The position numbers and the translations under genes were made by a program. Shown here piece by piece: positions 1-64,000 of a stretch of DNA of 64,000 bases. Origin of the DNA: Lophium mytilinum (taxonomy: Eukaryota > Ascomycota > Dothideomycetes > Mytilinidiales > Mytilinidiaceae); assembly GCA_010093605.1 (NCBI GenBank), contig MU004197.1:124001-188000 (forward strand), written 5' to 3'. Numbering within the stretch: position 1 is the first letter of the stretch; the number at the start of each line of letters is the position of its first letter. The notes under the pieces were generated by a model, which worked only from the letters and a program-made list of their open reading frames with translations, was not told where the DNA came from and made no database searches.

Positions 1-2458
1 GCCACCATTAGCGGCATCACCGTTGTCCTCAGGCTCTGTCAACTCCCCTGCGTCATCAACTGCGCCTTCAGCCACGCCCATATTGCTCGTCTCGTGAACT
101 GGAGACACAGGTTGCGCAGCATTGAGAGTACTCTGGCTGGGTGGGGTGGTTTGCGCAACACTGTTGCTACCATCAGCGGCATTGTCGTTGTGGTCAGACT
201 CGTCTCCCTGGGGCTGTTCATCGCGAGAAACAGCATGATCGGGATGCTCATCCTCTGCATTGGAGTCCAGGCCTTGATGTAGCCGGTCGTCTTCAGGGGG
301 AAATCCGGAAGAACCGGAATTAGAATTGACCTCGACCGTGTCTTCCTTCTCCGCGGAAGCCCCATGTGACTGTTCCGGGTCGCCAATGTTCTGCTGCGCT
401 GCTCCAAGGTCACCACTATGGCTTGCCTCCATATGGGGGCGCTCGAAGGCGGCCAATGCTTCAGCAACCTGCTGGGAAACCTGCTGGGAAACCTGCTGGG
501 AAATCTGTTGAGCCACGGTAGCACTCAAGAAGGTCTGGAACTCGTGACTGCATAAGCGCTCATCGACAGCAGCCTTGATATCGCGAGCGCGGTTCGCATC
601 AGCTTGCTCAAGAAACGCATCAAGTTGGGCTACTGCAGCATTGGTCTTGGCAAACTCCTCTCCTACCATCTTCCAAGCAGCGTCGAGTTTTTGCTTCTGT
701 TCCAGGTCTTGGGACACGATATCGTCTATCCGCTTGTTTAGTGACAGAGCTGATAGCGACGCTTTCTTGATGTCGGCGCGAAGGGCCGAGATGCACGTCG
801 ACCCACTTGAGACGCTTGTTTCGTTCAACTTGGAGACATTCTCGTTGAGTGACTTTGTGGTATTTTGGAGCTCTTGCATGCCTTTGCGCAGAATGCCAAT
901 CTTGCTGGTGTGGTCGTTAGATTTCTCTTGGAGCGTGTCGACTTCTTCTCGTCCGAACGATGGCCTCGCGATTTGCTTCTTCAGATCTGAGACGTCTTTT
1001 CGGAGTGATGTGAACTTCTTTGACCCTTCCTTGATGCACTTGCGCTCCAAGTCACGGACTTCCCAAGAGATACTGTCCATGCGCGTAGTCATCTTGTTCG
1101 CAGCTTCGGTGGCAGCCTGATCAACTTCCTTGGCAGTCTCATCACCCTTCTTAACCATGTCTTTCGCTTCCGCGACATCAGCTTTAGCCTCCGAAGCATC
1201 CTTTGCCGTCTTCCTGACCAAGGTCTCCAGAGTCTTAAAGGAATTGTGTTCATGCAGGTGATTCTTGTGAATGAAACCCGCGCTGACCTCGCCCAGGTCT
1301 TTCCGGATGGAGCGTTGATGGTCCTCCAAAGAACCGAAGCGGTCGTCTAAGCTAGTAAAGCCACCTATGCCCAGATGGTGTCGGTGTGTTGGGTTTGCGG
1401 CAACGGCGACTTCATCAGCGATTCTTTTGTAGTTCCACTCCTCGTTGCCGTGTAAGAGCTCTTCCACCTCACTTGTCCGTTGTTCCACCTCAGTGATCCG
1501 GTCTTCCACCTCTTCCAGAGTATGTTGTCTTGCCGGGAAAAACTTGGTATGGGGGTCGGCATCGTGCGCGTGCATATGGCGGGATCGGGAAGGTATGTAA
1601 CTGAGGATGCGTCCCAACTCAGCTCTCTTGGCGCGGCGTTCTTGACGGGCCTTCTCACGTTCCAAACGGACCTCTTCGTCTTTGGGGTCGATTTTGCTAT
1701 AGTGTTGTTAGCAATTGCATGCTTCTGTGACGCTTATGAAGTACAGTGACAGGCCGCAAGTCTAGGCACACCAGTACGCCACTGCTTGGGGTACACCCAG
1801 AGGATCTCGAAGACTCAAGGGCAATGTCAAGCTTCAAGCAGTGCAGATTAGACTGCCTCTTGACCAATTGCCTGCTCAGCAGCCAGGGCACTCCTCACGG
1901 TGACGTTGAGTGGTCAAGCTGGAGCCGAGCTGCAATGAGTCCGTGTGCCCAGACTTGTAGCCCAAGACCGTACCACATATCGAAGGGAGTTCCATGGTGA
2001 GTAAATGAATCGGCGGGACTCACCGGGGAGCATAGAGAATCCGTGCGGCGGCTTCGGTACCTGGTCCTCCCTGCGCAATCCGGGCTTCAATCTTTTGAAG
2101 ACAGTCCTCATACTTTTTCTTGTTTGCAACAAGATCCGCCTCAGCGTCTGCAGCTTTCTTCTGTTGTCTGGCTAGTCTCGACTGCAGAACGCGAACATGC
2201 CGTGCCGAGGATTCTTCCGCCCTTTTGACAACGGCGGCAGAGTGAGCAAGCATGGCTTGGAATTCGGGCCTACGCCAGTGTTAGCAAAACGTGTGCGGTG
2301 TACACCTTTGGGTCGATGGACACTTCAAAGAGCTTTGGGGAAGGGGGAGAAAAGGGTCTGTAGACTTACCACATAGCTGAATGAGGTCTTTCCGTGAGGG
2401 GAGAGACGTTTGCAGGTCCGGGACCAGCTTGCCGCTGTCCTGGGAGAGCAGATGCCAT
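1..2458 (-). CDS. P1: coiled-coil/disordered giant-family protein, 3' end outside the window
   Basis: Not a recognised family. My model has exons 2458..2370, 2269..2024 and 1696..1 (open at the window edge), giving 677 residues so far. ATG 2458 is the first in-frame start (MASALPGQ...). Intron 1 has a GTAAGT donor, a GCTAAC branch and a TAG acceptor. Intron 2 has GTGAGT and TTGCTAAC...TATAG, but is unusually long at 327 bp. Phases join cleanly (TG|G and CG|C). Exon 2 (residues about 30-110) is a charged helix rich in Ala, Lys and Glu. Exon 3 continues as a long heptad-like coiled coil (about 115-430), then becomes acidic and Ser/Asp/Gln-rich with a short QQVS repeat. No membrane segment is visible. 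Exon 1 ends in S-A-M plus two bases, as in P5, so P1 and P5 look like a soluble sub-lineage. The C-terminal module, if present, lies outside. Confident it is a gene; intron 2 less so. Confidence 0.75.
1785..1960 (+). repeat. Dispersed 163-bp-type repeat inside P1 intron 2
   Basis: Carries the family landmarks in order: TTAGACTGCCTCTTGAC, then a C-rich CACTCCTCACGGTGACGTTGAG core, then an AAGC(A/T)GTG-like tail. The copies at 25.1-25.6 kb look most similar. It accounts for much of the unusual length of this intron. Confidence 0.6.
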
Positions 2459-4130: not shown

Positions 4131-4280
4131 TCACAGTAACGTACCTGCAGGGTCTTTCGTAGGGCCAGGGTCACGAAAGGCGGTATTGTTCTCACGTTCT
4201 TCACGTAGTAGTTTATCAAGAAAAGCTTTCAGATCCATCATTACCAGTCCAGCTAACCCAAACTACTTGCAGCGGGCCCG

Positions 4281-4422
4281 GCACGCAACCCCCGTCTATT
4301 AGGACGGAGGTCTGCCAGCCCTCGCCCCAAACACCTGTATAGTGCGTTGTCTTAACGCGCAGCTGTCAGGCTGCGCATAGTGACTAACACTATACAGGGT
4401 TGAGACGAAGGCTGGTGTGCTT
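4281..4422. other. Class A conserved hairpin element, 3' flank of P2
   Basis: Lies about 85-225 bp past the P2 stop codon. It contains three nested or adjacent stems: CCAGCC (4315-4320) with GGCTGG (4410-4415); a perfect 11-bp stem CCTGTATAGTG (4334-4344) with CACTATACAGG (4388-4398); and a perfect 7-bp stem GCGCAGC (4357-4363) with GCTGCGC (4370-4376). Related copies follow P7 and P9, with paired changes in the stems. A purine-rich AAAAG tract (4432-4471) separates it from the gene. Confidence 0.65.
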
Positions 4423-4503: not shown

Positions 4504-7500
4504 TCAGCCGCCCGCCGCCTCGGACCAGTCGCTCACATCGCTCGCCGCGTCGCTCAGCTCGCTCGAATCGCTATCGCTGTCCTCCTCACGAGCCATGAGA
4601 TGGGACTCGTCGCGCTCCTCGACCTCTCGCTGCTCCTCCCTCAGAGCCCTCATCTGAGCATCCCGCTCGCGACGTCGGTCGTGCACAGTCTCAGTCTGAG
4701 AAGAGCTGGCGTCAGGACTTGCTAGGTCCAAGCTGGTAGACGTCTCCGTATCGTTCTCGACGTTCGCAAGGAACGCGCGAGCTGCATTCGCCGCAGCGTC
4801 AGCCGCTTCCTCGGCGTTGTACAGCATACGTATCGCAGAGGGGGTCTTTAGATCTTTCACCGCTTCGTCGAAGACGGTTGGCCATATCTCCTGGGCGTCG
4901 GCCGACAGCTGCTCGTGGGACTCGTTCATCTTCCGCTCCAGCTCAGCCAGCTCCCGCGCCTGTATCTGCTCGGCAAGCTGTTGATCCGCCTGCTCTTGCG
5001 CTGCTTTCTGAGACGCTTCGTTCGCTGCGTGCTTTGTTTGATACGCTTCCTGGTTCTTCCTCGCCTCCTCGCGCTTCTTCAGCAGTATGGTCTTCCGCTT
5101 CTCCCACGGGTGGTTGAGCTCCTTGGCGAGGGGCTGTTGGTACGTGTCCTCCGTCCGCGACTCAACCGGTTGCTTCAGCCAGTGCTTGAAGACAACCCCT
5201 TCTCTCAGAACGCTGAACCTGATCAGCTCATCATGGGTGAACGTCTGGCCATCTCGTCGATTATGCCGCTCAAGCACCCCATAGATCTGCTTCAGCGCGT
5301 CCTCCCGCATCTGCTCCGCGTCGCACGCGAGGTCCTCGTAGTCCCCATCGTCTAGCACCAATCCGGGGATGCAGTTGTAGGCCGTGGCACTCAGGCCACG
5401 CTCTTTCAGAAAGTCCCCCACGGCATCGCGCCACAGGACCTCGTTGCCGCAATCCGTGAAAATTACGCGCTCGATGGTGTGGAGGTAGTCGCCACTGTCT
5501 GCGGAGCGAGAGTAGAACGTCTGCTCCCTCACCGTCGTGAGATCGATGAGGGTGGAGTCGGAGAGGAGGGGGAGTCCGTCTTGGGTGATGTTCTGGTTGT
5601 CGCGGTCGTAGTGGACGATCAGACGGTAGAGGACGTTCTGGCGCTCGAAGATCTGGCCGAGATCGTCCCCATCCCGCATATCCGGTGGAGGTGGCGGGCG
5701 GGTTGGCTGGTTGGCGGGGTCGGTGAAGACCCTAGGGATGAGGCGGGGGTGTAGGACTAGGTAGGTGGATCGGGGTCCCGATATAGACGGCGGAGACGGC
5801 GACGTGTGGGGAGCCTGGATATTGGCAGTTGGCGCCACTCCAACAGTCGCAGCTGGTTGGAAAACAGGCGGGGATTGTGCTGCCATCTGAGGAGCATCGA
5901 CCTGCTCACCCTCATCTGAAGCCTCGGTGACCTCTTCAGCTTCGCCCATAGGCGAATCAGCCCGAGGAACGATAGGCTCTGGAGCAGGGGTAGCAGCCAC
6001 TGGCGTCAATCCGGCAACGCCAACGCGCGGGAAAAGGGCCTCCAGACTCGGGTCAATAGCCGAATTATCGACCGTTCCCTGGTCTCTATCGGGCGTAGGT
6101 GGCTCCCTGCCTTCAGCCATGTTCGAATCTGCGCTGAAGTCAAAGCTATACAGAGGGGCTCTCAATGCCTCTTGAGGTGCGACAAATGGTTGCAACGCAG
6201 GATCAGATCTAGAAGCCTGTGCCGTATCCACCGGATCAGGGCCCCGAGGAGCATCTGCAGCTTCGCCCATCTCGATATTGGCTCCGTAAATGCCGTCTGG
6301 GCGCGCGTTCCACGGATCAATCCGGTCCCCCCTGGGCTCGCTATCCTGCTGGAAAGCGGGAGCAGACGGAGGTGCCATATGAAAGCCGAAATTGGCAGTG
6401 GGAGGATTGAACCCGAAAATTGGGCTGGGTTGCTGTACCGGTTGCTGAGGCACAAAAGGCACTGGAGCTTGCCTAGCCACTACAGGAGAGGGGGATGGAA
6501 CCGTGAAGCTAAAGCTGTCCGCGTTGAACATGTTTGGCTGAAAGCCATTGGAATGGAAAGCATTCGGCGACACCTGTGGATGGAAGGAGGAGAACACAGA
6601 AGCTGGAGTGGTGGACCCGGGCGGTGGGAGTTGCATAGACGGAGAGAAGACCTGCGAGAAGCTCAGGGCGCTGGGGGGACTCGCCGCATGCTGCAGGGGC
6701 GCAAAATTGGCGGGAGCCTGGCTGCGATCTGGAAGCTGAGGCTGGTTGAACACAGGGGGCTGGAAGCTATTCAAGGTATCGGCAGCTGCGCCTAGATCAG
6801 AGCTTGGAAATGGTGCTGCAGTAGCGGGCAGGAGAGTAGGCGCAGGGCCTCCAGACGGCGGTAGGACAACACCAGTAGTGTCAGAGACCAAGGCAGATTC
6901 CGCATGTTCCTGACCAGCGTGATCGATAGCTTCTTCAAATCCAGCGCCTACCAACAGCAGCGTGGCTGAGGGTCCGTCAGCCGAGGGGGGTCCTCCTGAC
7001 GGTGCGATGGTACCGGCAGCGGAGCTAGGCACGAAAGCCAGATCTGGAAGCTCCTGGGCAACAGCCTTGACACCATCGCTTGTATCAGGAGTTGCGGGGA
7101 GTGAAGTGGACGGCGCTGCGTTAGTAGATGGAGGACTTCCTGACGGCGCGATGACCTTGGCAAGAAAGCCAAACACAGAGAACTGATCTGACTGCTCCTG
7201 AACAGCCTGAGAGATAGGCTCGCTTGAATCACCATCTGGTGATGGAGTGGCGGCGGAGGTTGGGATGGAAAATGGAGGTCCTTCAGAAGGTGCAATGACA
7301 GCGTCAGCAGAGTCTGACACGATGGTGAGATCTGAATCCTCTAGGCTATTGACTTTGGCGGCATCGCCAGAATCAGACTCCGGGGACTGAGATTGAGTAG
7401 AGTCCAAAAGAGGAGAGTGAAGGCCGTCGGACGGTGCGATCATAGTGGCAGCGGAACCCGACGCAATGGTGCGATCTGTCTGCTCTTGGCTTCTGGTCTC

Positions 7501-9259
7501 AACTGCACCATTTGAATCAGACTCCGCCGACTGAGATGTGACAGAGTTCGGAGGATGAAATCGAGGACCGTCAGACGGTGTCGTGACTACGATAACAGGC
7601 GCGGAAACCGACACGAGATTTGAACGGTCCTCCATAACCTCCTTGAAGACCGGCTTGGAAACACGACTACTGATTCGGAGCTTGCCGTTGAAGTCCTTCA
7701 CCAAAGCTTTAACGTCGAATCTCGCGCGGCCAGTCTGAAGCGCCATATCCGATGTAGCTTCTCGTAGCATAGACACCGGAGTGGAAGTAGCCACGACCTT
7801 TCCAGAGCGCTGTCCAGTGATGGCTGCTCCGGCACCGCTATCAGGTTCATCAGCCGAGTCATCCGATTCGTCTGAATCGTCGCTGTCAGAACCATTGAAC
7901 TTGAATTCCTTAGGATCGAAGTGGAATTGTGTGCGCTCTCCTTTGTCTGAGATGCGATCCTCTGATTGTGCATCTGAACCGATCCCTTCGTCATCTGTGT
8001 CCCGCCTGGAGCCACTATACCTCTTAAGGTCATTCACAGTGGTTTCCAGATCGAGAACCCGTTGGCTCAACTTTATGTCTTCCCTATTGCGGGCGTCTAG
8101 ATCGATACGCAACATCTTTACAGTACTCTTAGTACTGAACATCTTCTTGTTATCCTCATCCATATGTATTAGAACTGGATGCTTCAACGAGAAATCCATC
8201 TTCTTGAGATAGCCGCTCTTGACACCTTTTAGTTCTGCCAGGAGTTTGGCGTTTTCTTTCGTCAAGTTTTTGACTTCTCCCTCGAGCTCCGCTACGGCAT
8301 TTTCTGCGGCGCCTTGCTTGACACCTTGATCGAAGCTCCGCGTGGTCAAGTTCTTAATCTTCGCTTCCAGCGTTGCAACTTCCGCCTCATGCTGAAGATG
8401 AATAGGCTTGAAAAGTTCTTCGAAGATTTCTTTGATACGATCATCTGTCACGTGGTTTGTAGCTTGGTTGGTGTCTACTGAAGTATCCACCTCGAGCTTG
8501 ATGTAAGATGAAGAATTGGGACCGGTGCGAGCAGAATCATCTTGGAGAGAGTCCAGGGTTCGTACTGGTGGAAGAGGAGGGACAGATTGAGAAGGAGAGG
8601 CTAAGTGAAGGGGATAGACCAAGTGAGGCGAAGATGCCGGGTGAGGAGGATGGGCTAAGAGGTGAGGAGCTTGGACTACATTGGGATCTGCGAGGTGTGC
8701 ATCGCGGTGAAATCGTGCGCGCAAGCCTTTCCAAATGCGGTGCGCACTGAGAGCTAGCAAAACCCCGAGGATGAGGGTGAGAAAGAGCCATAGAAGCTGG
8801 TGAATTATCGAACGCTCTGCCGATGCAGGCGAGAATGTCCGATTTGAGCTCGATGTAAACGTAGAGTTGTCTTGCATAGGAGCTTAGAAAAGAGTGGGTC
8901 AGCGACGTCCTCATCTATACGAAAGTGAAAAGACTTACGCGTATCAGAAGCGGCCTTTACAGAATCCCACGCCTGTTGCTCTGAGATAGTGAGGTAAATC
9001 GGAGGCGGGTTGTACCGGATAGAAGCTTGGAAAAGAGAAGGTCAGCGACGTCCCCATCCATGCGAGAGTGAATAGACTTACGAGTATCAGGTGCAGACTT
9101 GACAGGGTCCGACACCTCGTGCTCCGAGATAGTGAGGTATATCGGGCGCGGATTGTACCAGATAGTAGCTTTACCAGCGTGAACGAGTATCCGCAGGAGG
9201 ACGTCGATGACATTGTAGCCTGTCTGGATGAGGGCATGGGCGGCCATGTTCGTGGCCAT
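4504..9259 (-). CDS. P2: single-pass membrane, FG/PQ-rich giant-family protein with two C-terminal modules
   Basis: Unrecognised. My model has exons 9259..9082, 9025..8939 and 8882..4504, giving 1547 residues. Both introns are 56 bp, GTAAGT...AAG, and nearly identical because exon 2 plus its intron is a tandem copy of the end of exon 1 (YNPRPIYLTISE then YNPPPIYLTISE). The N-terminus resembles P8 (GKA-x-W-x-YNP-x-P). A membrane helix lies near 114-137 (QLLWLFLTLILGVLLALSA), followed by a coiled coil (about 180-370) and an acidic stretch. Next come about six degenerate 46-48-residue repeats containing IAPS-x-GPP, then a Phe/Pro/Gln/Asn-rich tract with FGF and SF motifs. Two helical modules follow (about 5400-5660 and 5120-5330), then an Ala/Glu/Gln-rich helix and an acidic DSDSSELSD tail. 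The splice model keeps frame throughout. Confidence 0.8.
8883..9081 (-). repeat. Tandem exon-intron duplication inside P2 (143-bp unit)
   Basis: Exon 2 (87 bp) is about 80 percent identical to the last 87 bp of exon 1. The following introns, 9081..9026 and 8938..8883, are both 56 bp and differ at few positions. The period is 143 bp. The acceptor AG of both introns matches the place where exon 1 reads AAAG-CTACTATCTGG, so the acceptor may have arisen from exonic sequence at the duplication joint. Confidence 0.8.
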
Positions 9260-10410: not shown

Positions 10411-11122
10411 AACGTAGGGATAGGGTGGTAGTAATGAGAGGCCTAACATAAATATCTATACCTTTCCTAGCATTGGATCAACTCTACATGTTGGTTTGTG
10501 TCCACCTTTATCGATAAGAACCAGCCAATAAGGTCTAGCCGCTTAATTTAACGATTGGCCAAGAATTGCTTACGTAACAACCCAACACACTAACGTGCGA
10601 AGGAATACGGCAGGACACTAGGATCTTTTACGAATGCACGTTTTTCTCCGACCATTATTCCATCCCTGCTAGGTGCTACATTTTCTGAACTCGAAGCAGT
10701 AGATATCTGGAACTGTTTTGCCTAACTAAGGGCGTGCTGGCTGTGGCACCCCTAACAGCGGTGTCAATTATGCAAGAGTAGAGCCCGGGCAGTGAGATGT
10801 CTGTGGGCCCCAATATAAGGTATAGTACTATACTGGATCCGCACCATTAGTGAAGGGTAATTACGCAGCAGCATCGATAGCAGTCGAACAGCGCTAGTCA
10901 AGTCACATACTCAGCATTGCACCGTGGTGTTTTTATTTGTTTTTGTATTTTCTCATCCTCTAGAATACTGGGGCCTCCCAGACACCGCTCAACCCCGTCC
11001 ATCAGGACAGACACCCCATGACCATATGCAGTATGCCCATCGCAAAACACCAATATCTGCTTGCAAATTCAAACGCACCCAACTCGCACTCCAAATCGCA
11101 CCTGAGACTCAGCCACCGAAAC
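10411..11122. other. Gap between the P2-side fragment and the P3 3' flank
   Basis: No gene is supported. One dispersed-repeat copy lies at about 10728-10800 (plus orientation: GTGGCACCCCTAACAGCGG then GCAGTGAGATG). A T-rich tract occupies 10926-10955. A partial class A start (CAACCCCGTCCATCAGGACAG) lies near 10989-11009. Confidence 0.4.
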
Positions 11123-11400
11123 CCAAAACTATAAGACAAACCCGAACACCGGCTAGCCAGAGCACCGGGGAATACAAGAAATCTTCTTCTGCAAGAGGTG
11201 TCCGCAGTACTGCGTTCAAAACCTCTCATAGTATCGGAACTCCAAGTTTCCCCATTTTTGATTTTGTGGTGTAGTGTCCGGAATGCCACAACCCCTTCCT
11301 CTCCGAGTGATGTCCGCAACATTGCGTTCAAAATCGCTTGAAGAGTCAGGAGTCTGCCGGACGGTTGGCATATGTTGGGTGTAGGTGTTGGGGATTATTA
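11123..11400. other. Class B conserved hairpin element, 3' flank of P3
   Basis: Contains the class B opener (ACAAACCCGAACACC, then CTAGCCAGAG) near 11136-11162. Two CGCA-x4-TGCG hairpins follow at 11203-11214 and 11315-11326, each followed by TTCAAAA. A TTTTTTG-rich block follows at 11411-11510; it is A-rich in the mRNA sense of P3 and may be 3' UTR. Confidence 0.55.
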
Positions 11401-11587
11401 GTCTTCTAGGCTCTTTTTTGTTTTGTTTTTTTGTTGTTTTTTACTTTTTGTCAGTTGTTTTTGTTTTTTTTTGTTTTTTGTTCTGTTTTTGTTGTTTGTT
11501 TCGTTTTTGGTGGTGTGTGTTGGGCTGCGCAATCGCATAATTCTCTCCATCGCCCTCGGAGCACTACATTCGGCCCCGCTTCTTCGT

Positions 11588-14500
11588 CTACTGAAGCTCC
11601 TGGAGCATTGCTTGCTCAGCTCCGTCTTCCCCTCCCCAGCCATCGTCGTCATCATCATCGTCTGGAACCGCGAAGGTGCTGTTGTCAGGCGCTGTGTCGT
11701 TCTCTGGCGCTGCGGCGAGGGCGGGCGGCTCTAGAGGAACATCCCTTTCCTCTGGTTCTTGTGGCCGCCCCTGCCTGGCGTTCGCCGCCTGACGATCACG
11801 TTCCGCAACGCGTTGAGCCAGAGTCTCGTGGTCAGAGGGCTCGGTGTCGCCCATAAGCTCAGCCTGCCTAGTCGCCTCTTCCTCCTTCTCCGACGCAACC
11901 AATTCAGCTTGCCACTTCTGAAACTGCCGCCCCGCTTCGTCTGCCGCATCCTGCGCGTCTTTGGCCTTCATTAAAGCCGTCGTACGGGCAGCACTGTTCC
12001 TAGCGTCACGAATCGCCTGCTCCGCGACCTTCTTGAGCTCGATTTGGCGCCGCTGCTCCTCCTCCGCTTCTTGCGCCATCTTTGCACGGTACGCTTTATC
12101 TGCGGCGAGGTCGCGTGCGAACTCCGGCTCTTTGAGCTTGTACTTGGCCTGGAACGCTGCGTTCCTAGCGCGCATCTCGGCCTCGGATCGTCGGGCTTCT
12201 TCCTCCATTGCGGCTTCATCTGCTTTCTGTTGGTCCGCGATATCCTTCTTGGCCTTGCGCATCTGCGCCGCGCCGATCGCTATCCGCCCCTCATCGCCCT
12301 CCTGTTGGATCTTCTCACCGTACCGCTGGTCGTTCCGTCGGTCCTCGTAATGGCCAGCTGCCCAGAAGCGAATCGCGCGCTCCTCAGCGTCGACGGCTAG
12401 ATATACCATATCTTCGTCGGTGAACAGCGGCGCGTCTTTGAATAAGCGCGCGCGGTTCTGGCGTTGGAAGACGTGTTCGTATAGAAAGTATAGCCCTTTC
12501 AGGCGGACGTCGTTTAGCCAGTGGGAATACCGTTCCTCCTTCCAGTCTTCAGGGTGATACCGCTCTCGCTGGAGGAACACTGGCTGAAGGCGGTCCAACG
12601 CAGAGCGCGTGCTGAATGGCAACGGTAATGGAGCAATCTGCGTCTCGCGATGCGGTGCCTCTACATTGCTTGACCGTGGCGTCTGCGTGGAAGCTTGTGG
12701 CATAACACTAGGTGGAGGGAACGTGGAGGCTACAACCGTTAGTATTTTACGTTTTCCATCTGTGTTGTTTGAACGTGACATACCATTAGAAGCTTCTGGA
12801 CGAGCATCAGGCGTGGGGGGCGCCTGTGCAAACTGCTGACGTCCGGGTTGGTTTTCCATAGCCTGGGACGTGCTATGAGGGGAAGATGGACTCTGGAGAG
12901 TAGGTTCCATGTTTACTTCCATATTAATGGGCAGAGGCGCAAATCCTGGAAGATCCTTCACAGAGAGTCTCCAATCCGCAAGACACCTAAGCCAGAGTGC
13001 CGAGTTACCAACCTTGACGCTACCCATTCGACGAGACAGCTTCTCGACCTCCTCATGGTATTTATCATAGCTTCCAGCTCCCCGTGCGTTCGCAATCTTG
13101 AACTCCATTGCGCGTGCAAGGGTTACCCGCTCTTCGTATGAAAAGTTGCCGTTGTTGGCAACACCAGCCTCAGATAATGTCTGGAAGATGTGGCCCAAGA
13201 CGCCTTGACGTATATCCAGATATTTACGGAGGGTCGGGTCTGCAGGGAACAGCTCCATAACCGAGTAATTCTGCGAGGAAAGTTGAGGCGCTTGAGGTGG
13301 CGTTGCGTCAGGAACGCTACCTCCGGATGCGTTGTCATCGACGCCCATCTGCTCATCGCCATCATTATCTTGAGTTTCCTCCTTCATTTTGACGTTGCCA
13401 GTTTCGAGGTCATCCCGGGACTGCGGATTTGGCTTGACAACACCTGCGCCTTGGAAATGGTCCTGAACCGTTAGGGCGCCCCCGGAGTGAGCGACCCCGT
13501 TGACTTCAACTTCCTTAGACTCGTGTCCCATTCCGTCCTTCATTTTGACGTTGCCAGTTTCGAGGTCGTCCTTGAACTGCGGGTTTGGCTTCACAGCAGC
13601 TGCGACTTGGAAGTGGACCTGACCCGTTGCGGCGCCCCCGGAGTGTGAGATCCCGTTCTCTTCAACATCCTTGGACACGTCGCCCATATCATGATCGAAC
13701 TTGTCTGTTGTGTTCTCGCCGTTTGCGGTCGCCGGGCCTGCTTGAGGTTGTGTACCCTGATTTGCGTTTACCTGCAGAGCACTAGACACAAACGGCCCTT
13801 GTTGGTTTACGAAAGGTGTAGCTCCTGAGTTGGATGGAGCTTGGTTTGCTGGGACTTGAGTTGCTGGGGCTTGCGCAGCTTGAAAGTCCATAGCATGCTG
13901 GGTGATGATGGGTTTGAAGCTAGGGTCAAAGGTAGAGCGAGGAACAGCAAGTCCGAAAGAACTCGGCGGAGCCGCTGGCCCACCCACTGGAGTCGTTGGG
14001 GCAGCCTTGGCCAAAGTAGACTTCGTAGCGTGCTGGGCGATGTTGGGGTTGAAGCTCGGGATGAAGCTCGGGGTGTAGCTCAATCGAGGGCGCGCAAGTT
14101 TATATTCGTTCACCGGAGTCGCCAACACACTCGCTGGAGTCGCCGAAGTAGTCTTGGGTGTTGTAGGCTCAAAGACCATGGCTTCTTGATTGATAGATGG
14201 GTCGCGAGGAAGTTTGAATTCAAAGCGCGCAGGACGGAGAACTATGTCGCAAGACCGAGTCGCCTGCCCACCGACGGGAGTTGTTGGCGCAGCCTTGGCC
14301 AATGTAGGCCGAGGTTTCAGTGCTTGCTTAGAAAGGGTTGATTTGACTCTAGCCATGTTCACCGAAAGCGGACGAGCAGAAACCGAGCCCCTCGAGCGAG
14401 TCGCTAGCTCGCTCACTGGAGTGATTCGAGCGTCCTTGGGCAATGTAGGCTGAGAGTCGATAGCTTGCCCAATGGTGTTTGATTCGGAACTAGTACGGAA

Positions 14501-17500
14501 TACGAAGCGAGGAGGATCAAGAACGAACTTGCTCGACGAAGTGGTTGGGGTAAAGTCCAGAGACTGCATGGGTACCGGACGGGTGCTGCTCTGCTCTCCA
14601 GCGATGTGAGGAGGGGTTGACGACGTGGAATCGGTGCCAGGAGTCCCAGATGGAAGCGAGCGATCTGAAGCCTCTGTATTTGAGCTCGGTCCCGTGGTCT
14701 CATTCGAAGTGCCCCATTTTGAGGGCTCTGTAGATCGTGCAGTATTGTCCCCGCCTTTGTCGTTGCCGTGAGAGCTTCCAGACGCCTCAGCACCCCCTTG
14801 ACCACCGTCAGCAGGGTCATCGTCATCCGCATCATCGCCATCTTTCTTATGGATACTTAGATCCTTGTCGTCAGCTAGTTCATTCCGCTTTTTGGCAGCC
14901 TGCTCATCCTTCTTTCGCTCATCAGGATCCCTGAAATCGTCATCGTCGATACCGCTAACAAAATCCTTCTTTTTAAGCGTGAAGAGTGTCCCTTCACAAA
15001 CAGGGAGAGGAATTTCGCTAGCGATAGCAATCCACTTTTCATCGGCCTCAGTAGTAAACACGAACTCAGGCGAGAGCTCTTGAAGGATAGCGAGTGACTG
15101 GCGCATGAAGTTTCCCTCATTACTCCAAAAAAGAGTCACCTTTGGCCCGAGAGCAAGCATAAGCAAGTCCTCAGCACTCGTAGGCTTCGCTAAGTGATAG
15201 CGTGTTCGGAGCAAATCTTCCGTTTGCCTCATATTAATAGCTCTCCGCCTAACCTTTTTAATCTTACGGGGCGGAGTATTGGATCCGGCAGTGGACTGAA
15301 GCTCATTCACGGTGTTCTCGCCTTCGGGTTCCTTGTTGTCATCTTTGTTGGGATTGAGCTGGCGAGCGGTGTCGTTGGACACGGTAGTTTGAAACCCAGA
15401 AGAGTTGGTAGCAGACTCCGAAGATGGTCCAGCCAGACCGGTCGATCTCGAGTGATCAGCGTGCTGAGCCGGTAGAGAAGTATCGACACCTGCACCAGTA
15501 GTAATGGCGCTGGGGGATGTCGCATTTAGAACGTTGTTCGTGTCCTCCTCAGTGGTATTCGTGAGGGTCTCTTGTCCTTTCGATGGTGCGCCCGCTCCAT
15601 CTGAACCGTGCGTCTTGACCTCAACCTGTGTGGAGATCTCATTCTTTGTCGAGACCCCATCTTGTGTCGAGATCTCACCCTGTGTCAGAACCTCACCGCT
15701 TGTCAAGACCTCACTGTGTGTTGAGACCTCACCGTTCAATATAGAGCTAGACGGTGATTTCGCTGGTGACTCTGACGACAACGTATCGGTGGCTAGGCTG
15801 TTCGGGTCATGGCTGATAGTGAGGCTGCTGGGAGGAAGCTCCCCATGTTTATCCTCGCCCTTAACACGTTCCACTATATCGGTGACATTGGTGTTGAGCG
15901 CAGATGCTAGGTTGTTTGCGGAGTTTGGTGAGCCATGGGTGAGAAGAGAGCTCATAACAGAGCTTGGCGAACCTGACTCTTCCGAGTTTCCAGTCTGGCG
16001 CACAGGAGAGCTGGGAGTGTTATCCACGGGATTCTGCGCAACAGCCTGGTTTGATTTAATGGCTATCGCACTACCTTTTCCGGGATTGCTTGGATCGTCA
16101 TCGCCATCTGAGTCGTCCTCTTGACCATCACTTTGATCCTCGGAGTCTTTCTTCCTTTCATCCTGGTCTGCACCTGCACCATGGCGGTTGGGAGAGTCAT
16201 CACCCTGACCTGCACCTGCACCATGGCCCTCGTCCTCGGGGGTACCATCATCATCACCCTGGCCTGCACCTGCGCCTTGGTCGTCGTCCTCAGGAGTGTC
16301 GTCATCCTTATCTTTGCGCGTGTCCGAGTCGGGTTCCTGAGTCTCATTCTTTTCTTCGAACGGGGAATAGACGTTAGTCAGTTGCTTCTTGATGTCTTGC
16401 ACATCTTCGCTCAGCGCGAGAACAAGTCCCTTCTCAGCCTTGGAGTCGACGTCGCCACGCATGATCTGGAGATCGTTGCTGAGCGCCGTGACAGCATCCT
16501 TCCCAGCTTTCGAATAAAGGATTTCGCTCATCCCCTCTACTAAAGTGATAACTTTATCGGTATCGGTCTTTGAAGCGAAGTGGCCATCAAAATTCTTGAC
16601 CTCTTGTTCCAGGATAGTGAAATCTTGCTTTTCAGCCTTGTCGTCGACGGCCTTAGCAAGGGCTTGGCTATCCTCCCGGAGAGTGGTGAGGTCTTGCGCA
16701 TGAGCCTTCTGTGAAACATCCGCAGTGAGAGTCTGAACAGTCTGTTCCAAGGCAGTCAAGCGTTTCTTGATGGCCTTCTTTGCAACATCAGCCTGCAAGG
16801 TCTGAACTGAGTTTTGCAGTCCAGTAACGTCATCAGCATCCGACTTCGTGAGAAGTTGAGCATTCGTATTCTGGACCTCTTGTTGCAGATCCGTGACGTC
16901 CTGCTTTTCAGCTTTCCGGGCAAGTTCCTTTGTGACCTTGCGACGAAGAACACCAACACGCCTAATGCTCTTGTCATCTTGCTCCTTCGTCATCATCCGC
17001 AGTGCTTGCTGGGTGTTCTTTGTCGCTCGGACAGCTTCCCTGCGAGAGCGCCTAGTCTGCTTTTGGTGCAAACGTAAAGCAAACCGTTGTTGACGAAAAG
17101 CATGATTCCGCTTCTCCACGGCGACTTTGGAGTCTTCGAGAAGAGTGATTTTGGCTTCAAGCGCAGCGACTACATTCTTGTCTGCCTTCGTTGCGATAGA
17201 AGCGTGCATCTTAGTGTCTTTGTCCTCGGACTCTTTCATAGACGCAAGTGTGGCTCGCAGCATATCCTGGCAGTCCGGATCGGCGAGGCACTCTTTGAAC
17301 AGGCTCTGACGCTCTGAGGTGGTGATCGAAGATTCGGCGTCGGTATGAATTCCCTTGGATAGTTTTTCATCGACGGACTTTTTGTATGCTTCGAAGTCAT
17401 TGTTCAAAGTAGTCAGGAGTGCAGATAGGCCTTCGACTGCTGTGCGCAATTGAGAGAAGTGCGCATGGTCCGACAGCTTTTCGGTCTCGAGGAACTTTGC

Positions 17501-23925: not shown

Positions 23926-23933
23926 TTTATTAG

Positions 23934-24627: not shown

Positions 24628-24635
24628 TTTATTAG

Positions 24636-45500: not shown

Positions 45501-46863
45501 AGGAAGCATGATAGTCATACCACTTTTTATACGCCTTGAAGGATGGGGTTTGAAATACTGAGTCCGAAGTGATACGGGTGACAATGCCGTCGAATTTGTG
45601 CGTCTCGTTCCAGCATACATCGCTTGCTCCACCATCTTCTTCCTTTGCTTGCTTGTCGTCAGTGAGGTTTCGAACCTCATCTTGCGTGGCTCGACGCAAT
45701 GCGGACTTGTCGAAACTCAGGACTTCAAGCGCATGTATCATACGTGAACGCCAAGCGGATTCGTCGGCATCGAGATTCTGAAGATAGTGCTGTGTGCCTG
45801 GTCGCGATATCGGGGGATCTGGTATGGGAAGAGACACAGCAACCGGAGGGAGATAGACACCCGTGGGGAGATGGAGAGTAGAGCTACTGGCATAGGGAAC
45901 AGGAACCACCTGGCCACCAATTGACGTGAAAGCAAAGAGAGGGCCAGAAACCGGAGGGAGTTTCAAGCCGGTGAGCGCTGGAACTATAGTCTGAACAGGC
46001 AGCGTGTCGATCATGGGTCGGCGGAGATGGCGCAGCAAGGGCGCGATCCGGTTGTTCCAGAGAGCGCAGAGACGGCGCAGCGAGGATGCTATGATGGACT
46101 TGTACATCGCGCCGAGACGGCGCATCAAGGGCGCGATGATGTTCCTGTATAGCGCGCGGAGACCGTAGAGTACACCGAGGAGAAGGGGGATGTTGAAAAC
46201 ATATGGCGCCCACCGGTGGAATGCAATATTGTCTAGAACATTTCCAGGACCGGAATCATCGTCTCCATCGGTTGGGCCAGATGGATCATCGTCTTCCTCG
46301 GTTGGGCCAAGTGGGTCATCGGAGGTCAGAAACGTGACTAGTGGACTTGGTATTAGCAGCGATACACCACGGGAAGAGTAGCATGCATTCTTACAGTTGC
46401 TGAAAGTGGAACCATCCGCAATACCAGATTCATTTTTTGTCTCGGGCTTCGTGTAGTGAATATAGACCACTCGTTTGGGGACGTAATCAGAAAGCGCGCT
46501 GCTGCCAGACCAGTAATCTGCGCTAGAATCTCTGGAGTCGAAGTCTGGAAGGGTCAGGCGGAAGTCTGTGAGAGTGAGGCGGAAGTCTGTGTGGGTGAGG
46601 CGGAAGTCTGTGAGGGTCAGGCGGGTCGGGGCCGGATTGTAGTGCCAGACTGCCTTTCCGGTATTAACAGCTATCTGGAGGCCTGTGTCGAATGTACTGC
46701 GAACCACCTGCGAGAGCAGGAGGATGAACATATCGAACATTCCGACACCAGTAGTGAAATGCCTATAGTTTGATTAGCTTGTCTTTCCAGGTATTCAGTT
46801 GTGAGGAAGGGGGATATAGGGCGCTGAAACAATTCAATGACAGTGACGGGTTTCAACTTACAT
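42508..46863 (-). CDS. P8: membrane giant-family protein with one module and a start codon split by an intron
   Basis: Unrecognised. Preferred model: 46863..46862 (AT), 46762..46395 and 46337..42508, giving 1399 residues. The 99-bp first intron (GTAAGT...CTAATC...TATAG) leaves AT|G, so the ATG exists only after splicing; ATG 46740 is the downstream alternative. The second intron is 57 bp (GTAAGA, GCTAATACC, CTAG), divisible by three, and reads through if retained. Residues 1-45 resemble P2 (GKAVWHYNPAP), followed by four copies of RLTLTDF-like heptads. After an acidic DDD linker a membrane helix lies near 167-184 (VFNIPLLLGVLYGL), then three basic 15-16-residue repeats (IIAPLMRRL type). The disordered middle contains a 75-residue duplication (43,249-43,560). 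One module ends the protein, with TEWANTIKNCE. Confidence 0.75.
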
Positions 46864-48063
46864 TGTGAGCGGATGTGTTCGAGCAGATTGCTGGCAAGCA
46901 GCGAAAGCAGTGTGCCTGGACCAGAGGCAGCGCGCGAAGTCCAACGACAGTGAAGGAGCCGCAAAAGTGAGGTTGTGGAACACCAAGGCAGGGCGTGGTG
47001 TGGGGTATGAGGTGGTGTGTGGAGTGTCGATGGGAGGTGGTGAGGAGGAAGGTCCGTCAAGAGCGAGGGCAACGGATTGAAATCAGCAGCGTAGGCGCTA
47101 GGCGGCGCTAAGAGCTAGAGGGCACTTTCACTAGTGAAGTGAAATGACGTAATTGTGCGAATTTGATGCGACGGGGTTTGTGTGTCAACATCGGGTATTC
47201 ACTAGTTGTGGGCCTCGCTTTGTACCGGGTCCGGGCAAATTGGTGTTGCAGAGGGAGATTTGGCGAAGAAGGGAGAAGATGCTCAAGGTCTAGCTATATA
47301 TGCATGTAGTGTCGCAGGGGTTGAAAATTAGCTATATTCATAGACTTAGAAGTCATTCAGTCCTCTTTCTACAGTACTGAGTTATATGGTTGGACAGTCC
47401 TTGCAAGTCCTAGGGTGCTCCAAAAAGCATGGAAACTTCGAAATGCCATGTGACGGCCATCCTAGTGGGAATTAGACCACCTTTTGACCAACGGAGGAAT
47501 TGCTCCTTGGGGCACACCTTACAGTAGTGTCGGGAGAGCAAGGGTGAAGCCAAAACCATGGCATATCCATGTTGCCCACATCCAAAGCTCAGTACTGTAT
47601 GCTTATCCAATGCCTTGTTTATAGATCTGGTTTAGCGCGTGTCGCTGTTGACATCTCAATACTCAGACCAAAATATATTCAGGGGGACTAGCAGGTGCTG
47701 TCGCGGCTCTCAAAAGGACTGTTTGATCAGTACGATCTATGCTTGGTTGAAATTAGTACCCATATATCACAATTCTATTCCACGTATCCAATATAGCGCA
47801 GGTAGAATGTAGCATCGCAGCCTTCAAAACACCATGGACGTAGGAGTCTTTCAAACACATATCACCAGTGTCAAATCGAAGAGTCAAAGTTTGTAAATAT
47901 GCTTCATCGGATTCCAAACAGCTATTAAACCATTCAACTGTGATTACCAACAAAAGCTCCCTACTCGCAATACACTCGCACCGTTGACTACAATAGAACA
48001 CACAAAGAAATGAAAAAGATCTAGCATTTACTCCCAACTAGACCGACCTATCTGAGCAGGTCT
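46864..48063. other. P8 upstream region with one dispersed-repeat copy
   Basis: GTGTGCCTGGACCAGAGG at 46911-46928 is the shared GGACCAG motif. GGTGTGGGG / GGTGGTGTG-rich sequence lies at 46996-47045, and GGCGCTAAGAGCTAG (47102-47116) matches the P7 upstream word. One repeat copy lies at about 47463-47575 (TTAGACCACCTTTTGACC ... CACACCTTACAGTAGTGTC). A 94-codon minus-strand frame at 48037-47753 has no recognisable domain, so no gene is called. Confidence 0.35.
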
Positions 48064-48210
48064 AGCACGCGACCCCGTCTATCAGGACAGAAGTCTCCCA
48101 GCCTCCGCCCCCGCCCCAAATACCTGTATAGTTCCTTTGTCGAGCACGCAGCTATTAGGCTAACGTGTGACTAGCACCATACAGGGTTGAGACGAGGGCT
48201 TGTGTGAACT
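48064..48210. other. Class A conserved hairpin element, 3' flank of P9
   Basis: The inner stem is CCTGTAT (48123-48129) with ATACAGG (48179-48185). The central hairpin has CACG opposite CGTG around an AGC-TATTAG-GCT core, replacing GCGC/GCGC of the P2 copy by paired changes. The outer arm (CAGCCTCCG with CGAGGGCTTG) is weaker. The block is oriented as behind P2 and P7. Confidence 0.6.
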
Positions 48211-48325: not shown

Positions 48326-51300
48326 TCAACAGAACTCCTCAGCATCCCCGTACTTATCCGCGAAGTAGTCCTCTGGGTCCTCGTCGTCAGCCGTCGCTTG
48401 CTGAGCAGGCTGGGGCGCCGGAGCAATCGCAGGGGGTGCCGGTGGCTGCGCAGAACCTGTGGAGCTCTGCCCCTTCAGAGGTCGCACGCGGCGCTTCGCA
48501 AGCTGCTCGGTAGAGGCGCGCTTGGGCGTGTCTGTGTCGGCGGAGGCCTGGCCGTCGGAAGATTTGTGTTTGAGCTCGTGATCGTCGTCCTCGTCGTGTG
48601 TAGAGCTTTGATCTTCGCTTGGAGGGCTCTGGTCAGGGCGCGCCTTTGCTTCGGTGCTCTCTTTCTGCGCCTTGCGGTCCTTCAACATCTGCGCCTGAGC
48701 CCCAGAGTCCTCTTCCATGGTCGCCTTCGAGTCCTCATGCAAGGCTTTGTCCAGGGCCTCGGCCTCTTCTCGCTGCTCAAGGATCATTTTGACGTCGAAG
48801 TGGCTGGCTAGATATGCTTGGAACTCCGAGTAAATGGTGAGATAGTAGTTTCGGGAGCCTATCTCGATGCCGCCGTACTCCTGAAGCATCGCCTTTTTGT
48901 ACTCATCTTTTCGATCGGACTCAGGAGATTTGAGCGTTTGCCGAGCGAGGGGTTCTTCTCGAGACCGCGCCCACTCAATGAGTCTGGATTTGCTGAAATT
49001 TGTAGTATACGTCTCGTTTCCCTTCTTTAAGGCGCAGAAGAGTGCGGTAAGGCGGCGTATTCGCTCTTCTCCAAATTTGATGCCCTCGATGTGGTTAGGG
49101 GGTACCTGTAAATTGACTATAGGATCTGCGGGAGGAGGAGCGAGGGCTGTGGATGACGGCGCTGCTATGTTCCGGTTGTTGGGATCAGCGGCTTCTTTGA
49201 GTGCATCTTGATCTTCGACGGTGATAGCCTTGTTTCTCAGAAACTCGAGAAGAACGTCGCTGTCCATGGAAGGCGTATTTTGGAAAAGGTGGGAGATCTG
49301 TTCCTGGATCTTACCGTTGTACCTAGATCTTGAGATCGGCATAGGTACAGAGCTATCGTTCAGCCATCGCGCAGAGAATTCCCGCTCCATTGTTCGCGCA
49401 ATGATTGACAGAAAGTTTTGCGAGTAGCCGGTATGAAGCCGGTCGTTAGCCTCGTCGAGGATCTCGAATATGTCCTCCAGCCGGGATTGGCGCACAGGCA
49501 AGTATTCTGCCACTACGCCAGGGATGTGGAAAGGTTCCAGTTGAGGAATCGTGTCTTCGGAATCTGCATCGACGGCCTCTGCTTCCTCGAGTTCTTCCTC
49601 TTCGAGAATTGGAGCTAGTCCAAATGCATTTGGACGTGTTGGGGACACCGCCCTAGCTTTACCCTTATCTACCCTGCGTTCCATACGTGCCCGATCTGTG
49701 ACACCAGCTGACATCGAAGGCCGTTGGGTTGATTTTTCCTGCAGAGGCTCAGATGACGCACTGGAGGCATAAGAGCTAGCGGCCTGGAATGCGGGCAGGA
49801 TCGTGTCGGATGATGCTGAAGGCACAACCACGTTCGGAAAGGCTGGCTGAGTTTCCATGCCGGCCGGAATTTCAGAAGTAGGTTGAGTCTGATTTTGTGG
49901 TTGACTAGACATGGGTGCATCCTCTTCTTGCGTGGAGGCATCGTCCATGTTCGCAGCTTCCATGCCGGCTGGCATTCCAGACGTCGGCGGAGGAGGATGC
50001 TCATATTGACTAGACCTGGGGGAATCCTCATCTTTCGCGGAGGCATCGGCCATGTTCACAGCTTCCATGCTGGCCGGGGTTTCGGGAATAGATTGAGGCT
50101 GAACTGGAGGTTGACCAAACACGGGCGCATCCTCATCTTTCGTGAGAGCATCCGTCATATCCTGATTCTCCTGCGTCCTGTCCCCGCGGGGTAGCTCCTG
50201 AGCAACTGAAGGCCCAGCACGGTGAGCGTCAGCCTCGTTCTGCTGAGCTGGAAGACCTAGTTTTCCGAAAGGCCACTGATAGTTGGATAGGGCTGGTGCC
50301 TCAGCTCGCGTAGGGGATGAATCGAATATTGCATTCGCTCCCGGAGTCTGTAGCGGTGGAAGTGCTGGTCCTTGCGGACCTGCTGGTGAGGGCTCAGCCA
50401 CACCATCCGACTCTGCCATTTGCAGATCCTCGTTGGGGGGTTGAACCGCGTCCATTTCGGTATCTCCCTCAAATTGAAACCCATCCATATAATTGTCACT
50501 ATGTTTGGGTGGATTCGATGGCTCCTGCATGCCACTAATTTGTTCACCCGCTGGACGCGATTCAGAGCTCAGCAACGACGTGGTCGCGCCGTCAGCCTGA
50601 GTATTGGTATCTGCGTTCGCAGCATTTCCCTCGAGCCCAAACATCGAAGAGCTGTCGCCTTCATCTTGATCGGGCTGAGAGTTTGACAGAGCTGCCCCGG
50701 CATCGTCGTCCGCATATACCATCCTCGCGTTGTCCATATCTTCGGCAGGAGTCTTCAGATCTGGAGCTTGGGTATATGTGTTTTGCGGAGTGCCAAAAGC
50801 AGTAGGGGCACCACCGACACCCGCAGCGGAAGCGACATTCGAAGGCAAAGGGATACCGATATAGGGTGCAGGGATAGAAGCTTGCGCTAGCCCTAAACTC
50901 GGAAGTGCCGGGGGTGCCGTAGAGCTGTTTAGATGTTGGGCAATGTGCTTAGACATATCCGGGGTTTGAATAGGGGAGATGGTTGGAATTGATGGGACTG
51001 AACTTGGTGCATAGGTTTGCACGATTTGATCGGTAGTAGCACTGGCTGGGGGACTCTCTGGAGCTTTAGGTGGAGCCATAACGGTCGGAGCAGCTTCCTC
51101 GATTTTGGGCTGTGGGTCCTCAGCCTCGTCTGACGGCACATATTCCCGCTCAAATATTCTGTGTACTGCCGGGTATTGAAAGTCGTCGCTAACTCCAATG
51201 CTCATCGTAGAGAAGTCAATGATTGGGCCGATGCTCTGAGAGCTCTGCTCAGCGTCTAAAGCAGCTGTACTCTCATCAGACTCCTCGACACCGGTCACAT

Positions 51301-53217
51301 GTGACGAAGAGGTGGGGACTGCATTCGAGACCGGCGAAAGCGACGCAGTGGAAGTTGGCACGTTCGGCACATCGGCCAAGGCATGCGTATCAACTGCTGG
51401 GGGAGCTGCACTAACAGGCGGAGGATTTGATGGAGGCAGTCCCATGCACTTCAATAGAGCAGCAAGCCGAGTCTCGATCTCCCAACCGATGTCGGTGCTG
51501 ACGATCTCCGCAACGCCGTCATCGTCTTCAGTCTCAGTGTCGGAATGCTCCGATTCGGTGTCCTCGTCCAACGACACAGGCTCGCGCCATTGAATCAGGT
51601 CGGATGTTGATCTAGCGGAGTTGACATTGTCGATCTGGCTCTCCGAGGCGTGCTTTTGTATAACTTGGCATGGCTCTGCTAGAGTAAACCCGACAGCGGC
51701 ATCTTGTTGGAAAAGTGCATCCTGTTTCGTGGTGAAGTTGACGTCTGGGGGTTTGATGTTCGAATGGTAGCTAGATTCCGAGACGACAACAGAAGCATCC
51801 TGAATCACGGCGTTTGCGACTGGCTTTTGGGCGGTTGGTTGTGTTTTTGGGGTTCTCTTCTGTGTACGGCGAAGACGACGAAATTTCGATCGCCCAGGCG
51901 TTTCGATATCAGCCTGAATAACCTTTTCGGGTATGGAATGGGCCTTAGTGGGCTCTGCGGCAGGAGTCTGAGCCTGGGGACTTTTAATTTTGGAGTTCTG
52001 ATCCAAAACTGAAGCTCCTTCGACATGACGACGCTCAAGGGAAATCTTCTTGCTCTTGATCGCGTCCTTGGCATCGGAGCTTTCTTTGCCGGAACCGTGA
52101 TGTTGCGCTGGCAATTCTTCCCGCTTCGTGAATTCCTGGGGTTTACGTCGCGAAATTCGCATGTTGCGTCCTCGTGACAGCGCGCCCTCTGGAGGATTTT
52201 CTTCGGGGGCGGGAGGGACCTTTGGCTTAGGCGCGTAGTATTGGAACCAAAACGCGTCAGATTCCGCAACCTCATCCGCCTTCCTTTGGGCCCATTCGGC
52301 CTGGAAACGCGCCTTACGCTCCGCGCGTCTGAGGCTCTGCTTCTTCAAGTGGACCAACATTGCGTCTAGATCGTTTATTAGGCGGAGCCGACGGACTTCT
52401 TTTACGGCGGGGAAGAGAACAAAAATGTAGTGGTCTCTGAACTCTCGCCACACCGTAGTCGGGTCGCGAAACATTCCGAAGGCTTTCTTTGCGTGGGTCA
52501 GTAAATCTAACGCGTCTTGATCGAGCCCAAGGTTGAGGATGTCGTCTTGGGTTGCCCGTCCAGATCTGGGCACCCATATAGAGACTTCGGGCGAGGAATC
52601 TTGGTGCGCGGCGTGAACTAGACGCGAGCAGGTCGGAAGGCTGTGGTGTGATTTAGGTTTCATCTTGCGAGAGAGCTTTGCTTTGAAGCAGCGAAGCGCA
52701 TCAACCGTGCGACGAGAAACCTTTCCGGGCCACTGGTAAAGAAATCGGAACCGCTGAGAGGCGACCGGGACGAATCCAAAGAATGCAGTTGTTGTGCAGC
52801 GGAGTATCGCGTCGCAGTAGCGAAACGTATCCGCTATAGCGTGAGCCACCGCCCCCAGCCATCGAAGAAGTTGTCGGCAGAGTTGGAAGGCGCAAGCAAG
52901 AAGTCCAAGGATCGCAAGAGTCGTGGCGGAAAGGCGTGCTTTGCTCGCGAAAAGGGCATCGGACATGCGGCGGGACATCGCACTGCGCCAGCGAGCAAGG
53001 ACATGGGCATGGGCATATGTTGCGGTGACGAGGATGATGATAGCGAGAATGGCAAAGGGGTATCCGAAGCCTGGGATGAAGCCGCTGAATGAGGCAGGGC
53101 TGGGTGGAGAGGCGTCTAGAGATCACATTAGTAGAGCGCAAGAGGTGAGGGGACAGGCTAATAAGACGCGGGATAGAGCTTACCATTCCGTAAGGGCTCG
53201 AAGTCATCTCCGAGCAT
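48326..53217 (-). CDS. P9: two-helix membrane giant-family protein with two modules
   Basis: Unrecognised. My model has exons 53217..53184 and 53115..48326, with a 68-bp intron (GTAAGC, CTACTAATG, TCTAG) and a G|AC junction, giving 1607 residues starting MLGDDFEPLRN. An upstream 5' UTR intron (53339-53250, GTAAGG...TATAG) is likely. Two hydrophobic helices lie near 28-44 (FAILAIIILVTATY) and 74-90 (LAILGLLACAFQLC), so both ends may face the same side. Residues 150-300 are basic and helical. The middle is Ser/Pro/Glu-rich and includes three copies of a repeat of about 35 residues with MEA-(V/A)-NM-(A/D)-DAS at 49,870-50,170. Modules lie near 49,500-49,230 (RQSRLEDIFEILDEAN) and 49,080-48,800. 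The tail is Glu/Gln/Ala-rich and ends in a Pro/Ala and acidic segment. Confidence 0.8.

Positions 53218-64000: not shown

Follow-up and report, generated by a model that had tools for sequence, protein, structure and literature searches.

The 64,000-nt stretch of Lophium mytilinum contig MU004197.1 described here (assembly GCA_010093605.1, positions 124,001 to 188,000; hereafter the window) carries ten long reading frames, eight on the minus strand (G1-G5 and G7-G9) and two on the plus strand (P6 and P10). Most of them form a local array of related genes whose shared C-terminal module is, in all likelihood, a KIX-type domain. Gene models remain in frame for nine of the ten long genes; G1, which runs off the window, was left out, and the P10 frame is still open where the window stops. 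The locus looks eukaryotic, with very long frames and candidate short introns of the GT-AG type that have branch-site motifs; five genes (G3, G4, G5, G7, and G9) have a candidate intron of 53-95 bases near the 5′ end.

The shared module is approximately 95 residues long and occurs in 14 copies in seven genes. Three copies are found in P6 (31523..32866, plus; 447 residues), at 31793-32104, 32162-32452, and 32480-32776 on the plus strand, and three in G5 (26242..30881, minus; 1514 residues; candidate intron 30710-30804), at 27550-27873, 26980-27324, and 26539-26856 on the minus strand; neither protein has a membrane helix. Two copies each are present in G2 (4504..8877, minus; 1457 residues), which combines a membrane helix (8752..8808, minus; residues 24-42, hydropathy 2.32) and an acidic middle with modules at 5398-5694 and 5056-5385 (minus), in G3 (11588..18882, minus; 2412 residues; candidate intron 18550-18605), which has a membrane helix at residues 166-184, a stretch resembling a nuclear localization signal (NLS), and modules at 12953-13273 and 12248-12598, and in G9 (48326..53217, minus; 1607 residues; candidate intron 53116-53183), with membrane helices at residues 23-41 and 73-91 and modules at 49232-49540 and 48809-49120 (minus). 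A single copy closes G7 (34660..40640, minus; 1975 residues; candidate intron 40179-40231), located at the very C-terminal end (34663-34953, minus) of a protein that also has a membrane helix at residues 166-184 and a NUP50 motif, and another single copy lies at the very end (42511-42780) of G8 (42508..46740, minus; 1410 residues).

This module family is directly supported by profile comparison. Eighteen candidate modules were chosen by eye beforehand, and each was scored with a leave-one-out hidden Markov model (HMM) trained on the remaining 17; all 14 core modules score 13.0-35.2 bits, compared to at most 8.8 bits for 200 shuffles of each. An HMM of the 14 core modules, run against 415 six-frame segments of the window, recovers its own training modules, while the next best score, in P10, is 6.7 bits; with nothing above that value beyond the core, the family is firm for seven genes and P10 is unproven. 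P10 (58110..64000, plus; membrane helix at residues 313-331) ends in helical C-terminal repeats, one of which (P10a) reaches 15.1 bits in the leave-one-out comparison with 0 of 200 shuffles as good, while P10b, P10c, and P10d reach 5.1, 3.8, and 6.4 bits with 2, 4, and 0 of 200 shuffles as good, respectively. Aligned to the core with hhalign, P10 scores 15.8, compared to at most 11.15 for column shuffles (n = 30) and 13.4 for the reversed core, and P10 was not accepted as a proven member. Its repeats number four to five between 62046 and 63998, with recurring N and W; by eye, the KIX triad is absent from them. The core HMM finds no module among the six-frame segments of G1 (1..1575, minus), a coiled-coil-type frame cut by the window edge with its first ATG at 1575.

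Whole-protein BLASTP comparisons (E up to 0.01) return seven rows, six of which join C-terminal parts (G2-G5, G2-P6, G3-G5 twice, and G9-P6 twice). The seventh aligns the N-termini of G3 and G4 at 72 bits, with a candidate intron at the same position in both genes. G7 and G8 are linked to the family through the HMM and not through BLASTP, while G4 (20281..21814, minus; 492 residues; candidate intron 21480-21534; membrane helix at residues 146-164) carries no module and is tied to the array by its G3-like N-terminus and a 3′ element described below. The C-terminal end of G4 (20284-20334, minus) contains a stretch resembling a ubiquitin-interacting motif, which was not accepted at 13.3 bits against a cut-off of 21. 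Tandem in-frame repeats in G3, G5, G9, and P10 have ratios of nonsynonymous to synonymous substitution (dN/dS) of 0.49-0.61, from one copy pair each, which fits coding sequence under weak constraint. Judged by sequence comparison, the array is real: eight of its ten genes are related, and G1 and P10 are unproven members. A search with P6 alone found no relatives in contig collections described as viral and prokaryote, which says little about fungi.

An earlier account drawn from the letters alone (the sequence-only reading) had described eight minus-strand genes plus P6 and P10, and all ten long frames are indeed present. It was also right that the middles of these proteins barely align, as the BLASTP rows join only C-terminal parts and the one pair of N-termini. 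Its local duplication with fast divergence is supported for eight of the ten genes, connected by the module, the G3/G4 N-terminus and intron, and the 3′ elements; G1 and P10 are unproven. Of the shared architecture, candidate introns near the 5′ end are present in five of the nine models, and C-terminal helical modules recur in seven genes. Overstated were the N-terminal blocks, which G3 and G4 alone have in common, and the modules of P10, which the core HMM does not find; G4 has no module, and none was matched in G1.

The identity of the module is indicated by three columns that are invariant in all 14 copies, R18, E57, and Y73 in the numbering of module P6c. Column 22 is L in 13 modules and I in one, and column 33 is N in 12 of the 14. 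AlphaFold models of P6a and P6c are helical, with mean predicted local distance difference test (pLDDT) scores of 82.7 and 81.7, and contain a fourth helix; R18 is close to the N-terminal end of helix 1 (H14-35), E57 (E53 in P6a) is within helix 2, and Y73 (Y74 in P6a) is at the N-terminal end of helix 3. An Arg-Glu-Tyr triad is conserved across KIX domains (PMC12129344), and the Arg-Tyr pair, Arg-600/Tyr-640 in CBP, is crucial for the KIX fold (PMC3936767). The likeness to KIX was noted before the module profile was searched against 177,635 PDB sequences. That search gave two matches with E up to 10, the first being the KIX domain of Med15 (4d7x, E 0.045) and the second a GGDEF protein (E 0.37); the consensus R, N, A, E, and Y are identical in the 4d7x alignment and present in a Saccharomyces sequence as well. 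With hhalign, the core scores 17.5 against a two-sequence KIX profile, compared to at most 10.5 for column shuffles (n = 100) and 8.8 on reversal. Among the best 50 of 57 Foldseek matches to P6c, KIX entries hold ranks 1, 2, 3, 6, 15, and 16, with a template modeling (TM) score to the target of 0.50-0.69 (entry 6dmx being counted as KIX from its chain length), and among the best 50 of 115 matches to P6a they hold ranks 12 and 33 with a TM score to the target of 0.61. The single comparison programs agree although each signal is weak, and the module is very probably of the KIX type. The sequence-only reading had found no recognizable family here, a statement that no longer holds for the module, whose KIX-type identity is well supported by the triad and the in-register alignment with Med15 KIX, or for the one NUP50 motif in G7.

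Apart from the module, several of these proteins have hydrophobic helices, acidic middles, or NLS-like stretches. A helix above 1.6 on the Kyte-Doolittle scale is present in six of the nine models (G2, G3, G4, G7, G9, and P10), which agrees with a membrane-anchored scaffold for these six as far as hydropathy goes but not for G5, P6, and G8, where there is none; several of the helices are followed by basic residues. After residue 250, and with modules excluded, the net charge is -78 to -108 in G2, G3, G5, G7, G8, and G9, compared to +6 in G4, +7 in P10, -2 in P6, and -33 in G1. NLS-like stretches occur in G3, G5, G7, and P10. The NUP50/Nup2-like motif of G7 (PF08911; 36685..36846, minus, from about residue 1242 of 1975) scores 26.7 bits (E 8.1 × 10−6) when cut out with its flanks, against a Pfam cut-off of 22.5. 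Pfam scans covered whole frames, 96 overlapping pieces, single modules, and the module consensus. No Ran-binding domain was among the matches listed for the frames or pieces, FG is sparse in G7 (three FG, three GF), no Med15 family was matched in whole frames or pieces, and the frames matched no DNA-binding, Mediator, or other nuclear family besides the NUP50 motif. Matches such as those to Fib_alpha (5.7 × 10−6), DivIC, Snx8_BAR, and Golgin_A5 were attributed to the accidental likeness of coiled coils, and a CRM1_C match on module G5b (E 0.0073) was likewise taken as a chance match.

The interpretation favored here, with a probability of roughly one half, is that the array encodes a rapidly evolving family of KIX docking proteins, most of them membrane-anchored, which would retain the transcription machinery or transcription factors at a membrane. 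The membrane in question is probably the inner one of the nucleus. The proteins would be very large and mostly disordered, with one to three C-terminal KIX-type domains as their only broadly shared folded part. A short N-terminal head and a membrane helix would anchor most members, crossing the membrane once or, in G9, perhaps twice, and the long acidic chain would enter the other compartment with the KIX-type domains at its far end. By the positive-inside rule, the basic residues behind several of the helices suggest that the long chain faces the cytoplasm or nucleoplasm. On this flexible acidic tether, the modules may serve as docking sites for RNA polymerase II or for the amphipathic helices of transcription factors. 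KIX ligands are short amphipathic helices in disordered regions of transcription factors for Med15 and CBP, while the KIX domains of TFIIS domain II and RECQL5 bind RNA polymerase II (PMC12129344, among others), and it is from these binding habits that the likely job of holding transcription factors or machinery at the membrane is drawn. An inner nuclear membrane location is suggested by the NUP50/Nup2 motif in G7 and by the layout of an NLS plus a long linker in G3 and G7, the arrangement with which yeast Heh1 and Heh2 are imported as membrane proteins by means of an NLS and a long disordered linker (PMC4695851). P6 and G5, soluble proteins with three KIX-type domains each, might bind these ligands too, in competition or as bridges. 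More tentatively, and with less confidence than the general interpretation commands, each paralog of an expanding fungal family might tether KIX domains to the inner nuclear membrane and hold different factors or RNA polymerase II there, with P6 and G5 as competitors, so that the family would be a membrane-bound counterpart of the tail of Mediator.

Comparison with known systems places the array close to Med15 in its module and apart from it in its architecture. Med15 carries its KIX domain as a subunit of Mediator and is not known to have a membrane anchor. Like the module, the Med15/Gal11 domain (PF16987; PDB 4d7x and 2k0n) is a helical docking domain with its Arg close to where helix 1 begins, a Glu within helix 2, and its Tyr where helix 3 begins, and the N and A positions match too; unlike it, the array modules come one to three at a time and close very long proteins, the majority of which have a membrane helix, and the module models show a fourth helix. 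Another related group is that of Rex3/REXO1, RECQL5, and TFIIS domain II; TFIIS-type entries are among the matches listed in both Foldseek runs. Rex3/REXO1 (EloA-BP1, PF15870) has a triad that aligns with those of Med15, CBP, and TFIIS (PMC12129344). P6b matches EloA-BP1 weakly over its first 27 residues (E 0.2), but no nuclease, CHORD, or helicase domain was matched in the array frames. Several KIX domains per protein, as in the array, are also known from plant proteins, with up to six in one protein of Brassica oleracea (PMC5668377) and tandem KIX proteins in rice (PMC3936767). Heh1 and Heh2 resemble the array proteins in working only, since they too combine a membrane helix with an NLS on a long linker that is disordered (PMC4695851); the array frames gave no match to a LEM-type domain, and no sequence relation is claimed.

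Several observations weigh against the docking interpretation, and those that concern the fold are best considered together with the proposal of an unrelated origin, in which the module is a small helical bundle whose R, E, and Y agree with KIX by accident and the array is a lineage-specific structural family. No search returned a significant E value for KIX: the PDB profile match to Med15 KIX is not significant on its own, the hhalign probability of the core against the KIX profile is 5%, and Foldseek E values for KIX entries are 2.0 or more, the P6c list being without any E up to 0.001. Other helical bundles appear in both Foldseek lists, with HURP and serum albumin at the top for P6a and complex I subunits also above the KIX entries. 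The Pfam KIX models (KIX_2, PF16987; Med15_N, PF09606) match 0 of 12 modules, 0 of 10 modules, and not the consensus, so that the module is not filed under either accession. A two-sequence KIX HMM missed all modules in the 415 six-frame segments (its best score, 1.1 bits, lay elsewhere) and hardly separates modules from shuffles, the best core module being G9b with 2 of 300 shuffles as good. Some modules are strongly negative, with a net charge of -14 in G7 and -9 in G2a. Homology between KIX classes is known to be hard to detect by sequence (KIXBASE, PMC5668377), and an accidental likeness would have to produce three invariant columns that equal the KIX triad, each in the helix where KIX has it and aligned with Med15 without a shift, which makes the unrelated bundle an unlikely account.

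The remaining points against docking at the nuclear membrane concern location, and here other readings of a KIX-type array have to be weighed. The membrane helices are called from hydropathy, the NLS-like stretches are short and of a common kind, and acidic motifs of the form ϕ-x-x-ϕ-ϕ are enriched to about twice the shuffle mean in G4, G7, G9, and P10 only, and not in G1, G2, G3, G5, P6, or G8. The NUP50 motif scores 19.5 bits in the whole G7 frame, which is below the cut-off, a phmmer search of the segment against the PDB matched neither a Nup2 nor a Nup50 chain, and when the frames were scanned in pieces, Fib_alpha (5.7 × 10−6) outscored NUP50 (5.3 × 10−5). A membrane helix in six of nine models and the lack of matches to nuclear families beyond this motif would also suit KIX-type modules on the endoplasmic reticulum, vacuole, or plasma membrane, where a cytoplasm-facing scaffold would bind other disordered proteins without a role in transcription; the NUP50 motif itself, the NLS-like stretches in four genes, and the ties of KIX domains to transcription and RNA processing (PMC12129344, among others) leave that arrangement less likely than docking at the nuclear membrane, though it is the foremost alternative. 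The proteins might otherwise be accessories of the nuclear pore or basket, in which the Nup2-like motif of G7 would bind partners in the basket or importin while the modules did no more than join paralogs. The motif of G7, which passes the curated cut-off for the Nup50/Nup2 N-terminal region (PF08911) when cut out, agrees with this, as does the known presence of Nup2/Nup50 both on chromatin and at the nuclear envelope (PMC9071577). The motif occurs in one of ten genes, however, and is internal to G7, which also has a membrane helix and ends in a KIX-type module. Nup50 and Nup2 are further characterized by a Ran-binding domain and FG repeats, of which the former was unmatched and the latter are sparse in G7, and a pore accessory is improbable. 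A polymorphic system for allorecognition is the least probable reading of all: fast divergence, a local array, and tandem in-frame repeats with dN/dS of 0.49-0.61 are compatible with it, but no known allorecognition domain was matched by Pfam in frames or pieces.

If the docking interpretation is right, the array is a new setting for KIX domains, which the cited literature ties to a few transcription and RNA-processing proteins (PMC12129344, among others). KIX and tandem KIX proteins are already known, while a fungal array of membrane-anchored giants ending in KIX-type domains appears to be new: literature titles and abstract openings contained none, although this does not prove that none exist, and neither a KIX review (PMC3936767) nor the KIXBASE paper (PMC5668377) uses the word "membrane" in its main text. 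Membrane tethering of transcription machinery would then become directly testable. It also illustrates how divergence may hide a recognizable fold, with three invariant residues revealing KIX where Pfam does not.

The DNA between the genes has repeated elements of its own, which are directly observed. Two families of shared 3′ elements, as previously proposed, follow seven of the array genes. Family A follows G2 (4231..4419, minus), G7 (34332..34514, minus), and G9 (48017..48206, minus) and begins 84-145 bases past the stop, while family B follows G3 (11110..11505, minus), G4 (19964..20257, minus, in pieces), G5 (25820..26173, minus), and G8 (42172..42461, minus) and begins 23-82 bases past the stop; a partial copy of family B also lies downstream of G7 (34044..34155, minus). 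The three copies of family A fold as RNA with z scores of -9.6, -5.2, and -3.35, with 0 of 200 shuffles as good in each case. The fold consists of two RNA hairpins, the first of them long, and both apical loops read CCUAAUAG, CCUGAUAG, or CCUGACAG. A covariance model finds its three training copies and one antisense match over the G2 copy; 97% of its pairs are able to pair, with no covariation beyond column make-up in these three sequences. Family B gives inconsistent z scores as a structured RNA (-1.0, +1.4, -3.8, and -0.6 in four copies).

A further element of 143 nt occurs in 21 copies, all intergenic, in eight of ten spacers and in tandem in places (1827-4126, 10691-10828, 25098-25600, 31238-31325, 33734-33801, 41028-41951, 47453-47595, and 57698-57792). 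Its consensus, from 20 copies, contains the palindrome GGGGTACCCC, and no consensus pairs emerge from an RNA fold over 20 of the 21 copies (z of 0.54, -0.09, and 0.87 in three copies); the element may have a regulatory function or be a repeat of the satellite type. Distinct from it is a 143-base tandem repeat at 8876-9171 (2.1 copies, 81% matches), which lies directly upstream of G2 and touches its start.

The genes do not fill almost the whole window, as had been suggested, since 19,767 of its 64,000 bases are intergenic by the gene models and a RhoGEF-like gene lies within the array. This gene (54941-57432, minus) matches Pfam RhoGEF at E 2.3 × 10−5 and 25.1 bits, against a cut-off of 27.6, and bears no sign of membership in the array family. 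ARAGORN found no tRNA genes in the window, and an Rfam scan of it gave no match at gathering scores. The spacer from 22501 to 25200 is AT-rich (GC 0.44-0.48), with a mildly raised TA/AT ratio of 1.18-1.54; repeat-induced point mutation (RIP) was considered as the cause and set aside, as these indices amount at most to a weak RIP-like signature.

Shared promoter words, also part of the sequence-only reading, were overstated or not confirmed. Among 11 upstream regions, no exact 10-mer recurs in at least four, and counts of upstream 7- to 9-mers are at the null or barely above it. Six 14-mers are common to two upstream regions (null mean 0.45, maximum 6), compared to 11 for downstream regions (null maximum 1), and pairwise BLASTN detects a short upstream likeness between G2 and G5 and between G4 and G5.

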